Shown here: one piece after another, positions 47,269-51,619 of the stretch
Layout: each line of letters starts with the position of its first letter
Position numbering within the stretch: position 1 is the first letter of the stretch
Assembly (NCBI RefSeq): GCF_900114645.1
Contig: NZ_FOTR01000004.1
Location: 186,001-250,000, forward strand
Source of the DNA: Gracilibacillus orientalis
GTDB lineage: Bacteria; Bacillota; Bacilli; Bacillales; Amphibacillaceae
DNA: 64,000 nucleotides
Reading direction: 5' to 3'
The notes under the pieces: model-generated
Databases searched by the model: none
Seen by the model: only the letters and a program-made list of their open reading frames with translations
Told to the model about the DNA's origin: nothing
Position numbers and translations under genes: made by a program

Positions 47269-48015
47269 ATGAAAACACAAATGTCTAATACGTCGCCTTT
47301 AGATGATAAAGATGTAAAGAGGTATATTCAGTTAAGTCAACAAGGAGATGAAGATGCAAGAGCAATATTGGTAGAAAAAAATATTCGTCTAGTCTGGTCT
47401 GTTGTACAACGTTTTCTCAATAGGGGCTATGATCAAGATGATTTATTTCAAATAGGTTGCATTGGGTTATTAAAGTCTATTGACAAGTTCGATTTGGAAT
47501 ACGACGTGAAATTTTCCACTTATGCTGTACCGATGATTATCGGTGAAATACAACGATTTATACGAGATGATGGTACAGTAAAGGTTAGTCGTTCCTTAAA
47601 GGAAATTGGTAATAAAATTAGAAGGATGACAGATGAATTAACAAAAGAACTAGCCCGAGCGCCGACAGTACAAGAGATTGCAGATAAGCTAGATCTTACG
47701 CCTGAAGATATCATCCATGCCCAGGAAGCGACGAAAAAACCACAGTCCATACATGAAACAGTGTATGAAAATGACGGTGATCCCATTACATTACTGGATC
47801 AGATTGCAGACGTCAATGATAATTGGTTTGATAAGTTATCAATGGAACAAGTTATTAAGGACTTGGATGAAAGAGAACGATTAATTGTTTACTTAAGGTA
47901 TTACAAAGATAAAACACAAACAGAGGTTGCTAACAGGCTAGGAATTTCACAAGTCCAGGTTTCTCGTATAGAAAAGAAAATATTAGAGAAAATAAAAGAA
48001 GAGATTGTTTATTAG
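47269..48015 (+). CDS. sigF: RNA polymerase sigma-F factor
   Basis: First forespore-specific sigma factor. The 248-residue product has region 2 (IRLVWSVVQRFLNRGYDQDD, DLFQIGCIGLLKSIDKFD), region 3 and region 4 (TQTEVANRLGISQVQVSRIE). ATG 47269 is favoured because AGGTGATGGCT precedes it; GTG 47260 and ATG 47263 are in frame but overlap the RBS. A terminator follows at once. Confidence 0.97.
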   Translation: MKTQMSNTSPLDDKDVKRYIQLSQQGDEDARAILVEKNIRLVWSVVQRFLNRGYDQDDLFQIGCIGLLKSIDKFDLEYDVKFSTYAVPMIIGEIQRFIRDDGTVKVSRSLKEIGNKIRRMTDELTKELARAPTVQEIADKLDLTPEDIIHAQEATKKPQSIHETVYENDGDPITLLDQIADVNDNWFDKLSMEQVIKDLDERERLIVYLRYYKDKTQTEVANRLGISQVQVSRIEKKILEKIKEEIVY

Positions 48016-48044
48016 GATTATCCAAAGGGATAGTCTTTTTTTTT
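48016..48044 (+). terminator. Terminator of the spoIIA operon
   Basis: Eight-pair stem (48016-48023 with 48028-48035, one T-G pair), AAAG loop and a nine-T tail. Confidence 0.85.
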
Positions 48045-48070
48045 ATGAAAAAAAAGTTCACGAAAACCAT

Positions 48071-48583
48071 GAACTGCGCAGTAACTCTATAAAGGATTTG
48101 CTTCCTTCCCTTCTTTCTTGTAAAGATTGTTATGCCACCGCTGCGGCAGAATACTTCGCTTTCCGTGGGCACGGCTTCAGCTAACTTGGTAAAGAAAATC
48201 ACTTTACCAAGTGGTTCTTCAGCCCCGCGTGAGTTCCCACAGGAGTCTACGTATTCTGCCTACGCTGGTAAGGATTTACTGATGATTGAAAGGATAACAT
48301 CCATGGAATATACACCTTTAGGATTTCTTCTGACTTCATTAAAAAACTACTCTAGGCTGCGGAAAAATGCGAGACTCCTGTGGGAAAGGAACAGTCTGAA
48401 GACCCCGCAAGAAAACGTACTAAGGCCGTGCCCAGTGGCATAGAAGACACTGTGAAAACTTGGTTGAACAGATGTCGCACTTGTGCCCTCGGGTGAAAGC
48501 GAAGTATTCTGCCGAAGCGATTCCCAGCACTCACCATCAAAAAGGTGGAAGAGCAAATCTACGCAATAAGTTACTGCACAGTT
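48071..48583. repeat. 513-bp non-coding element with inverted arms and two hairpin-repeat copies
   Basis: Arms at 48071-48103 and 48547-48583 are imperfect inverted repeats (shared core GCAGTAACT and GATTTGCT). Inside are two inverted copies of the same repeat found at 33.4-33.8 kb: forward about 48131-48266 and reverse about 48350-48525, each with CGGCAGAATACTTCGCTTTC and CCCACAGGAGTCT marks. Within a copy the two ends pair (GCAGAATAC with GTATTCTGC). No credible gene lies here. Confidence 0.75.
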
Positions 48584-48648
48584 TGTATCTACTACTTAAT
48601 AAGTGGAGTGGGTAGGGATAGGGTTCGTATGGTTTTCCATACCGATAT

Positions 48649-48677
48649 GAATACATATATAAAATCAACTTATACTA
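48649..48677 (+). promoter_or_regulatory. Candidate sigma-G promoter of spoVA
   Basis: GAATA (48649-48653), 17-bp spacer, TATACTA (48671-48677) matches sigma-G with one -10 mismatch. B. subtilis spoVA is sigma-G dependent. Expected transcript start near 48684. Confidence 0.5.
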
Positions 48678-48724
48678 AGCACACACTATTTCCTCACAAG
48701 CTAATATTAAAAGGATGATGTAAT

Positions 48725-49342
48725 GTGCAGGAAGAAAAGGTTTATATTCAACTTAAAAAGAAGATCGCAGTGGACAAACAACATTTATTAATATTAAAAG
48801 ACGTTGCTTTTGTCACTGGTAATATTGATTATTTGGAACAATTGGAAACATTAAAGATTTATCAAATTACTGAGAAAGATAATAATGTTTCTGTTATTGA
48901 CGGCTTCCAATTATTAGATACGCTAGTAGAGGCATATCCATTCCTTTCTGTCGAATTATTAGGAGCGAATCAGGTAATTGTGGAGATTAAGAAAAATGAT
49001 AAAAAAGCTAATTTCTTCTTAATTCTCTTCATTTGGATGCTTCTCTGCATCGGATCAGCAATGGCGATCATGAATTTCCATTATGATGTCAGTATGGAAG
49101 AGGTCCATCAAGGATTGTACTTCTTATTAACAGGTGAACAAAAGGATAAACCGCTTTGGATTCAAATCCCCTATTCAATCGGTTTAGGCTTAGGGATGAT
49201 TCTGTTTTTTAACCATATTTTCAAAAAGCGTTTTAATGAAGAACCAAGTCCGTTAGAAGTTGAAATGTTTAACTATCAGCAGGACCTTGATCACTATTTA
49301 ATTTATCATGAGAATGTACTAAATAAACGTGATGACTCGTGA
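48725..49342 (+). CDS. spoVAA: Stage V sporulation protein AA
   Basis: A 205-residue protein with a cytoplasmic N-terminal domain (VYIQLKKKIAVDKQHLLILKDVA) and two C-terminal membrane helices (about 96-116 and 145-165). It is part of the dipicolinate-channel operon. The GTG start follows AAAGGATGATGTAAT. Overlaps spoVAB by about 11 bases. Confidence 0.92.
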   Translation: MQEEKVYIQLKKKIAVDKQHLLILKDVAFVTGNIDYLEQLETLKIYQITEKDNNVSVIDGFQLLDTLVEAYPFLSVELLGANQVIVEIKKNDKKANFFLILFIWMLLCIGSAMAIMNFHYDVSMEEVHQGLYFLLTGEQKDKPLWIQIPYSIGLGLGMILFFNHIFKKRFNEEPSPLEVEMFNYQQDLDHYLIYHENVLNKRDDS

Positions 49343-49766
49343 AATAGTCTATATACTAGCGGAGATTGCAATAGGCTTTGGGTCAGGGTTAATGGTAGGA
49401 GCGGGCTTTGTAGCTTTTTTAACTGTATTAGGAATCATCCCGAGATTAGTTCAGTTAAGTAAATCCATTGGATGGATGAATAATTATCAGGCAAGCGTTA
49501 TTATAGGTGCCATGCTCGGAACATATCTAACTTTCACAGAATGGACACTAAACATTCCGGTTTTAATTTTAGGATTTTGGGGGTTATTTCACGGTATCTT
49601 TATTGGAATGTTAGCTGCTGCATTAACAGAAGTATTAAATGTTTTTCCAATTTTAATGAAAAGATTAGGAATTGATAAAGAACTACTTTGGTTATTAATG
49701 GCAATAGTGATTGGTAAAATTGCCGGGTCATTATTTCATTGGATCATCTTTGTAGATATTTTATAA
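49332..49766 (+). CDS. spoVAB: Stage V sporulation protein AB
   Basis: A ~144-residue membrane protein with four hydrophobic segments and glycine-rich stretches (IGFGSGLMVGAGFVAFLTVLG). It matches SpoVAB by order and composition. ATG 49332 or the preceding GTG 49329 can start it. In B. subtilis spoVAC, AD and AE follow; here they are missing and spoVAF comes next. Confidence 0.92.
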   Translation: MTREIVYILAEIAIGFGSGLMVGAGFVAFLTVLGIIPRLVQLSKSIGWMNNYQASVIIGAMLGTYLTFTEWTLNIPVLILGFWGLFHGIFIGMLAAALTEVLNVFPILMKRLGIDKELLWLLMAIVIGKIAGSLFHWIIFVDIL

Positions 49767-49790
49767 AGATTAAGTAATCAAAGAACAGTC

Positions 49791-49838
49791 AGAACAAAGA
49801 GCGCCTTTCACATTCAATAGTTTTCTCTCTTTGGTTCT
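49791..49838 (+). other. Hairpin without U-run in the spoVAB-spoVAF spacer
   Basis: AGAACAAAGAG (49791-49801) pairs with CTCTTTGGTTCT (49827-49838) with one bulged base. No T-run follows, so it is unlikely to terminate and may be a processing or stability element. Confidence 0.5.
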
Positions 49839-49855
49839 ACTTAAATGATACGATG

Positions 49856-49968
49856 AAAGGAGGAGCATTGGACTGTTTCTGATACTATAGAAATGAAATA
49901 TTTCACTTTCATTTATTTTTATATGGTATCAGACACATTTTGCTCACGGGCGTCCAATGCGATAATCA
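49856..49968 (+). promoter_or_regulatory. Split translation start of spoVAF: strong RBS, long hairpin, start codon
   Basis: AAAGGAGGAG (49856-49865) is the only strong RBS before spoVAF, but the conserved ATG is at 49968. The bases between fold into one long hairpin: 9 bp (49865-49873 with 49952-49960), 16 positions with a single mismatch (49874-49889 with 49922-49937), and an 8-bp apical stem (49891-49898 with 49907-49914). Folded, the RBS is seven bases from the ATG. Confidence 0.65.
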
Positions 49969-51437
49969 TGAAAAAAAAGAAAAATAAAATTCCCGTCAAT
50001 CGTTTAATCATGAAAAATCAAGAATATATGAAAACTAGGCTAGGTATCGATGTATCTTTTGATGTTGGATTCCGTGAATTAATAATTTTAAAGAAAAAAA
50101 TCCAATTATATTATGTGACTGGATTAGTCGATACAGATTTTGTGATTGAAGTTATGAAAAAAATAATTTCAATCAATGATGAAGAGAATAGGGATAGTGA
50201 CATATATGAAGTACTGAATAACCGCATAGTTCACCAACAGGTTGAAAAGGCAAAAACAATGGATGAAGCTGTTGATCAAATGTTATCTGGACTACTCATT
50301 ATTTTTGTAGATGGTCAAGAAGAATGCTTTATCATTGATGTTCGTAATTATCCAGGTAGAGCGCCTGAAGAACCTGATACAGAGAAAGTCATAAGGGGTT
50401 CAAGAGATGGTTATACGGAAAATATTATTGAGAATACGGCTCTGACAAGAAGACGTATAAGAGATGAACGGTTACGTCACGAAATGATTCAAGTTGGTGA
50501 ACGTTCTAAAACAGATATTTGTATTTCCTATTTACAGGATGTAGCAGATAAAGGACTTTTAGATTTAATTAAAGATGAATTAAATCAAATTGAAGTAGAT
50601 GGACTTTCTATGGCAGATAAAACGATTGAAGAATATTTAGTTCAACAGGGATTTAACCCTTACCCACTTGTAAGGTATACGGAGAGACCAGATGTTGCTT
50701 CGACACATTTACTGGAAGGTCACATATTAATTATGGTTGACACCTCCCCAAGTATGATTATTATGCCAACCACTTATTTTCACCATGTGCAACACGCAGA
50801 AGAATATCGTGAATCACCAGCGGTAGGTACGTTTGTCCGTTGGGTCAGGTTTGTCGGGATTTTTGCTTCCCTATTTTTATTGCCAATTTGGTTGTTACTG
50901 GTAATAGACCCATCCCTATTACCTGAAAATTTACAGTTTATTGGTCCTAATGAAACAGGGAATGTACCAATTGTTGTTCAAATCCTATTGGCAGATATCG
51001 GTATCGAATTTTTACGGATGGCTGCCATTCATACACCAACTCCTTTATCAACTGCGATGGGGTTGATTGCTGCAGTGTTAATCGGGGAAATAGCGATAGA
51101 GGTAGGGTTATTTAGTGCAGAAGTAATTTTATATGTCGCGATTAGTGCAGTTGGGACATTTGCAACACCAAGTTATGAATTAAGCGTAGCGAATAAAATG
51201 GCAAGAATTATTTTAATTATTTTGACCTTTGCTTTCCAGGTGAAAGGGCTCATCATCGGAATCACAATTATTCTCTTGATATTGATATCTACTAGGTCGA
51301 TGCAAACTCCATATTTGTGGCCATTGATACCATTTAACGACAAAGCTCTATGGCAAATTTTATTCCGCGTGTCGATGCCGTTGTCAAAGACAAGACCTAG
51401 TATTGTAAGACCTAAAAATAATCGTAGTCAGGCATAA
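49968..51437 (+). CDS. spoVAF: Stage V sporulation protein AF, GerA-A family
   Basis: A ~489-residue spore membrane protein related to germinant-receptor A subunits. The conserved N-terminal region has YMKTRLGIDVSFDVGFREL and QLYYVTGLVDTDFVIEVM, followed by a soluble domain and about five membrane helices after residue 290 (LLEGHILIMVDTSPSMIIMP, then RFVGIFASLFLLPIWLLL). In B. subtilis it works with SpoVAEa in germination. The start at 49968 gives MKKKKNKIPVNR, matching the family; upstream in-frame codons are inside a hairpin. Confidence 0.92.
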   Translation: MKKKKNKIPVNRLIMKNQEYMKTRLGIDVSFDVGFRELIILKKKIQLYYVTGLVDTDFVIEVMKKIISINDEENRDSDIYEVLNNRIVHQQVEKAKTMDEAVDQMLSGLLIIFVDGQEECFIIDVRNYPGRAPEEPDTEKVIRGSRDGYTENIIENTALTRRRIRDERLRHEMIQVGERSKTDICISYLQDVADKGLLDLIKDELNQIEVDGLSMADKTIEEYLVQQGFNPYPLVRYTERPDVASTHLLEGHILIMVDTSPSMIIMPTTYFHHVQHAEEYRESPAVGTFVRWVRFVGIFASLFLLPIWLLLVIDPSLLPENLQFIGPNETGNVPIVVQILLADIGIEFLRMAAIHTPTPLSTAMGLIAAVLIGEIAIEVGLFSAEVILYVAISAVGTFATPSYELSVANKMARIILIILTFAFQVKGLIIGITIILLILISTRSMQTPYLWPLIPFNDKALWQILFRVSMPLSKTRPSIVRPKNNRSQA

Positions 51438-51619
51438 ATTAGAGTAAACACTTGAACTGGGGATAAGCCTGTGATAAATTAACTTTATACTTTGTTAGAA
51501 TTTGTAGAAATGGGAATTCTTTTATCCCTTGTCTACCTGTCTATGTTAAAAAGATGGGGATAAGGGATTTTTATTTGAAGAATACAGGTAGTAGCAAGAG
51601 AAGGCGAGGGTTCAATAAG

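Follow-up and report, generated by a model that had tools for sequence, protein, structure and literature searches.

How does the ribosome reach the start codon of spoVAF in Gracilibacillus orientalis, where the strong Shine–Dalgarno (SD) sequence preceding the gene, AAAGGAGGAG (49856–49865), lies 102 nt before the conserved ATG (49968)? In the accessible text of a study of Bacillus subtilis, SpoVAF is described as belonging to an ion-channel complex by which the germination response is amplified (PMC11837508). An earlier note on the window (the whole 64,000-nt stretch of DNA analyzed here) had pointed to this distance, and both positions were confirmed in the sequence. It had suggested that the intervening DNA folds into a hairpin that acts as a structural bridge for initiation, possibly as a switch responding to temperature, ribosome or protein, or that an inserted hairpin is tolerated because it restores the spacing. 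Here we consider these proposals in the light of RNA folding, comparison with related genomes and selection on the gene.

Results

The features of the junction are collected in Table 1. The name spoVAF is based on the GerA match and on the position behind spoVAB. A gene for a PLP-dependent decarboxylase, which we take to be lysA from the usual order of the operon, follows downstream. The interval between spoVAB and spoVAF (49766–49968) contains no further gene, and none was seen in the genus relatives with a readable spacer (13 of 16). The extra DNA described below begins immediately after the spoVAB stop codon (49766), and the spacer contains the strong SD, then the predicted 96-nt hairpin and a further 7 nt before the conserved ATG. 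An intrinsic terminator was ruled out, with 0 terminator-like sites (hairpin plus T run) on either strand of 49600–50100.

Table 1. Features around the spoVAB–spoVAF junction, in window coordinates
Feature	Position	Strand	Remarks
spoVAA	48725–49342		Pfam PF12164
spoVAB, gene upstream of spoVAF	49329–49766	+	Pfam SpoVAB PF13782, 8.7e-35
spoVAB–spoVAF spacer, 201 nt	49767–49967	+	
Strong SD AAAGGAGGAG	49856–49865	+	
96-nt hairpin, predicted	49865–49960	+	
Four-codon dead-end frame TTG GAC TGT TTC TGA	49868–49882	+	directly behind the SD; start within the hairpin stem
Alternative in-frame ATG	49893–49895	+	within the apical stem; its use would lengthen SpoVAF by 25 residues
spoVAF, GerA family, 489 aa from the conserved ATG	49968–51437	+	Pfam GerA PF03323, 8.2e-159; relatives

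The sigF–spoVAA spacer of the same operon carries a dispersed repeat block (48120–48570) with 91 matches in its own genome, itself included (E ≤ 1e-5); the spoVAF insert is a different sequence. Between this block and spoVAA, at 48648–48677, lies a sigma-G-like promoter, TGAATA-N17-TATACTA, with one mismatch to the consensus. The insert itself contains no sigma-G-like forespore promoter at up to one mismatch to the same consensus.

The sequence AAAGGAGG pairs with the 16S tail at −10.9 kcal/mol. It occurs three times over both strands of the window, and its other two occurrences lie 7 nt before an ATG. No SD is present near ATG 49968. Of the 60 ORFs in the window that reach 120 aa, 54 are preceded by a near SD with −5 kcal/mol or better, and the spoVAF ORF is one of the two (2/60) whose near SD is weaker than −3.5 kcal/mol. 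A 464-kb sample, made up of the window and 400 kb of contig C14, contains 370 ORFs of at least 120 aa, of which 338 are preceded by a near SD and 32 are not. Among these 32, only spoVAF combines a strong SD far upstream with a strong single hairpin that would close the gap; another ORF without a near SD (L179, 10520, minus strand) shows a 72–74-nt gap with a weak fold of −11.3 kcal/mol. Within this sample, the arrangement at spoVAF is a single case and not a habit of the genome. Without folding, the SD would lead to the TTG at 49868, only 4 nt from AGGAGG, and the frame read from there does consist of four codons and a stop, as had been noted.

The minimum free-energy fold of 49850–49975, which the earlier note had advised computing, contains the hairpin and reaches −35 kcal/mol (z −4.65; 0 of 200 shuffles as good). 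The hairpin alone (49865–49960) has −33.0 kcal/mol versus a shuffle mean of −13.4 (sd 2.7), and none of 2000 shuffles was as stable. With a longer flank (49760–50000) the fold is less exceptional (z −1.94; 8/200 shuffles as good). The description as a single long hairpin with a 14-nt bulge and an apical stem was borne out, except that the 25 near-perfect pairs named there are 24 in the computed fold. It comprises a 9 + 3 + 12-pair stem, an 8-pair apical stem and a 3-pair side helix in the 14-nt 3′ bulge, giving 35 pairs, and the last G of the proposed SD (49865) is its first paired base. Stretches of 96 nt that are as stable number 20 among 10,652 over both window strands and lie at five other places in the window.

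Pair probabilities were calculated in four sequence contexts of 136 to 801 nt. At 37 °C they exceed 0.97 in the outer stem, are about 0.94 in the next 3-pair segment, and exceed 0.93 in the main stem in all contexts; the TTG at 49868 is almost always paired in this model. The outer stem is predicted to be mostly paired at 20, 37, 50 and 60 °C, with a minimum of 0.62 in one context at 60 °C, and the suggestion of a switch found no support. The 221- and 401-nt contexts leave the SD core only partly free, several positions being 0.01–0.4 unpaired at 37 °C. ATG 49968 is almost wholly paired in the 221-nt context (0.01–0.02 unpaired) and 0.70–0.96 unpaired in the 401- and 801-nt contexts. A second hairpin upstream (49767–49850) was rejected as not significant, since 320 of 1000 shuffles fold as well. 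A known Rfam leader or riboswitch was likewise rejected: no match in 47900–51600 reached the gathering score, and none of the four hits up to E 5 lies over 49856–49968.

In the predicted fold, the distance between AGGAGG and ATG 49968 falls from 104 to 8 nt. The restored working spacing is a prediction, and by itself it is unremarkable: 572 of 5000 shuffles of the 104-nt spacer, about one in nine, also leave 5–11 nt behind one helix, and it is therefore weak evidence when taken alone. As for stability, 13 of 4916 plus-strand stretches of 104 nt are as stable, and two of these, which may overlap the hairpin itself, also leave 5–11 nt behind one helix. What is unusual is the combination of stability and position: the stem begins right at the SD. 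Spacing preferences vary among bacteria, and in the available text of one study Staphylococcus aureus prefers a spacing 2–3 nt longer than Escherichia coli does (PMC13009471). Because S. aureus belongs to the same phylum, 8 nt would be plausible here.

The closest SpoVAF relatives by name are those of G. lacisalsi and G. suaedae, 91% identical. All 16 other Gracilibacillus genomes searched lack the insert, and in all 16 an SD of −5.5 to −10.4 kcal/mol lies adjacent to the aligned spoVAF start. In 13 of the 16 the spoVAB–spoVAF spacer measures 14–32 nt, and six of these, the nearest relative G002 among them, have 14 nt; for the other three (L040, L045 and L046) the computed gap belonged to another ORF, and the sequences were inspected directly instead. 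Since the spacer measures 201 nt here versus 14 nt in G002, about 187 nt are extra. In a broader set, 80 loci kept of 137 named (13 Gracilibacillus by title), every locus offers a possible start whose SD reaches −4.9 kcal/mol or better. Both this figure and that for the 16 genomes are to be read knowing that the start was picked in frame by its best SD at each locus, which biases toward finding one and, in the comparison with the 16, gave ATG 49923 for the genome under study. Two side observations concern the loci compared: in several other genera the sequence that immediately precedes spoVAF is a different one, and in one relative (G001, locus L040) the spoVAB frame is seemingly shifted near a G run, possibly a sequencing error.

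Searches for relatives of the extra DNA gave a consistent picture. Among 159 family genomes the insert was found in its own genome only (E ≤ 1e-4), and 397 order genomes yielded no credible relative; a 29-nt match there (E 3.3e-5) is AT-rich, lies near the end of an unrelated ORF and lacks the hairpin. Neither phages nor plasmids (searched with the hairpin only) contained a credible relative, and viral contigs gave nothing useful, with a single 17-mer match (L164). Further copies of the hairpin, which the earlier note had thought worth looking for, did not appear: the insert is single copy in its own genome, where BLAST and two arm patterns (up to 3 mismatches) returned weak or low-complexity further matches. 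A one-sequence covariance model gave only weak further hits as well. In 155 family genomes it matched five others with a best E of 0.0096 per genome, or about 1.5 expected over 155, and by eye these five matches are unrelated sequence (ORFs are listed for one). A dispersed hairpin repeat of the REP or MITE kind would occur in several copies, which the single copy does not match. Local duplication of the flanks was rejected as a source, its best case, an inverted spoVAB end, being equaled by 39 of 400 shuffles.

Because the hairpin is present in one genome alone, no covariation is to be had. By these comparisons, the extra DNA is lineage-specific among the genomes searched and no conserved RNA element. 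The earlier note had said that close relatives with a normal site and no hairpin, no covariation and a lack of initiation at 49968 would together count against its reading; initiation aside, this is what the relatives display. Relatives without the hairpin are therefore evidence against a conserved regulatory RNA. Their existence is still compatible with bridging that arose after an insertion.

The spoVAF gene is intact, with a pairwise dN/dS of 0.069 versus G002. In a comparison of the four closest genomes, which left out lysA, 15.5 nonsynonymous and 51.5 synonymous changes are unique to this genome, and 12.5 and 28.5, respectively, to G002. The total on its own branch is thus higher than for G002, and the nonsynonymous share is not. 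Judged by these counts, spoVAF is under purifying selection with no sign of decay, which argues that the gene is probably still translated. The purifying selection is possibly older than the insertion, as much of the branch may predate it.

Discussion

We propose, at a probability of about one in two, that the native ribosome site was displaced by an insertion, which also brought in a new SD, and that this SD would be used with the hairpin looped out, as reported for genes 38 and 25 of phage T4 but with a much larger loop. About 187 bp would have been gained between spoVAB and spoVAF after the split from the nearest relative compared. The adjacent ribosome-binding site present in the relatives would have been lost; the difference is seen directly, and its direction follows from parsimony. 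The 30S subunit would then most likely bind the SD with the hairpin looped out, placing ATG 49968 at 8 nt, and the stem would hide the TTG that opens the four-codon dead end. With TTG 49868 paired and ATG 49893 located in the apical stem, ATG 49968 is therefore the best-placed start for this SD. The hairpin would be a spacing repair following the insertion and not a conserved switch. In favor of bridging are the stable hairpin, the strong SD at its foot, the lack of a near SD, the intact and selected spoVAF and the T4 precedent. Against it stand the missing covariation, a spacing attainable by chance, the partial pairing of SD and ATG in some contexts and a loop far beyond those of T4. Of the proposals in the earlier note, the structural bridge remains the best-supported reading, given the T4 precedent and purifying selection, with the bridging itself a matter of prediction. 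The idea of an inserted hairpin tolerated through restored spacing fits best, the insert being absent from all 16 relatives, which have an SD beside the start.

It is possible, although we consider it unlikely, that ATG 49968 is used by weak SD-independent initiation, the insertion being nearly neutral and both SD and hairpin incidental. Such a situation would not be foreign to the genome, where 32 of 370 sampled ORFs lack a near SD, and chance could plausibly produce the loop spacing. However, a strong SD lies exactly at the hairpin foot, and spoVAF bears no sign of decay. It is distinctly doubtful that ribosomes translate the minicistron from TTG 49868 to its stop (TGA, 49880–49882) and reinitiate at ATG 49893, producing a SpoVAF with 25 additional N-terminal residues. 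The frame from 49893 is open into spoVAF, this ATG lies 10 nt past the minicistron stop, and in 3 of 16 genus relatives the alignment to the extended protein reaches upstream of residue 23, in one case through a stop codon. In the other 13 the alignment starts no earlier than residue 23 (the conserved start is residue 26); moreover, the TTG is paired in the predicted structure and sits just 4 nt behind AGGAGG, and ATG 49893 lies within the apical stem.

A hairpin acting chiefly as a regulator or processing site, whether as a target for a double-strand RNase, a protein site or a temperature-dependent bridge, seems to us very improbable. In favor of this reading the stem is long and stable, but it is not conserved, has no Rfam match over it, and its outer part is predicted to remain largely paired up to 60 °C. 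We give hardly any credence to the spacer being a small mobile hairpin element or an assembly artifact with no part in translation. The insert is missing from the relatives searched, and another spacer of the operon does carry a multi-copy repeat. Conversely, the insert is single copy, has no relative in 159 family genomes (E ≤ 1e-4) and no credible one in 397 order genomes, phages or plasmids (hairpin only for the last), and lies well inside a 397-kb contig.

The closest parallels to the preferred reading, looping out of the hairpin after an insertion, come from phage T4. In the available text of a review, structure reduces the SD–AUG spacing from 22 to 5 nt in gene 38 and from 27 to 11 nt in gene 25, mutations and probing are reported, and destabilizing mutations lowered initiation (PMC3014915). 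As in spoVAF, an overlong SD–AUG spacing is brought to a working distance by intervening structure, and the gene 25 arrangement is also missing in more distant relatives, as far as that text goes (PMC3014915). The spoVAF leader resembles these genes in having an SD that is too distant (102 nt) with none nearer, and in a structure that leaves a working distance (8 nt), here by prediction only. Sharing by close relatives, a supporting trait seen for gene 25 among T-even phages in the same partial account, is found in 0 of the 16 genus relatives. Unlike in T4, the distance measured from AGGAGG would shrink from 104 to 8 nt; the spoVAF case lies in a sporulation operon of a cell, is confined to a single genome and is known by prediction only, and its gap is about four times the longest reported for T4 in the text available (PMC3014915). 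By this analogy, the spoVAF leader is a candidate variant of T4-type bridging and no proven member.

Two other systems share individual features. The bypassed segment of T4 gene 60 is also a noncoding insert with stem-loop features that is tolerated as the ribosome passes; according to the accessible description, it lies within the coding sequence and is bypassed in elongation, whereas the spoVAF insert precedes the start codon (PMC5009743). Small dispersed bacterial repeats likewise add palindromic intergenic DNA, to judge from the part of the source available (PMC2229807). Unlike them, the spoVAF insert is single copy with no detectable relatives. In the literature accessible to us, a scope outside which many subscription journals fall, we recognized no cellular bridged or looped-out SD spacer of this size.

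Conclusions

We advance only tentatively, with somewhat more doubt than confidence, the wider view that the cellular ribosome starts translation of a sporulation gene across a looped-out hairpin of 96 nt, far larger than in the phage examples, and that folding alone can rescue an insertion between SD and start. As SpoVAF is placed in a germination-amplifying complex by the accessible text, a change in its dose could therefore measurably matter (PMC11837508). If the proposed explanation is true, hairpin-bridged initiation would be extended from phage T4 to a cellular operon, with a loop of nearly 100 nt. The sister species and this one would then form a natural before-and-after pair bearing on the maximal distance between an SD and its start.
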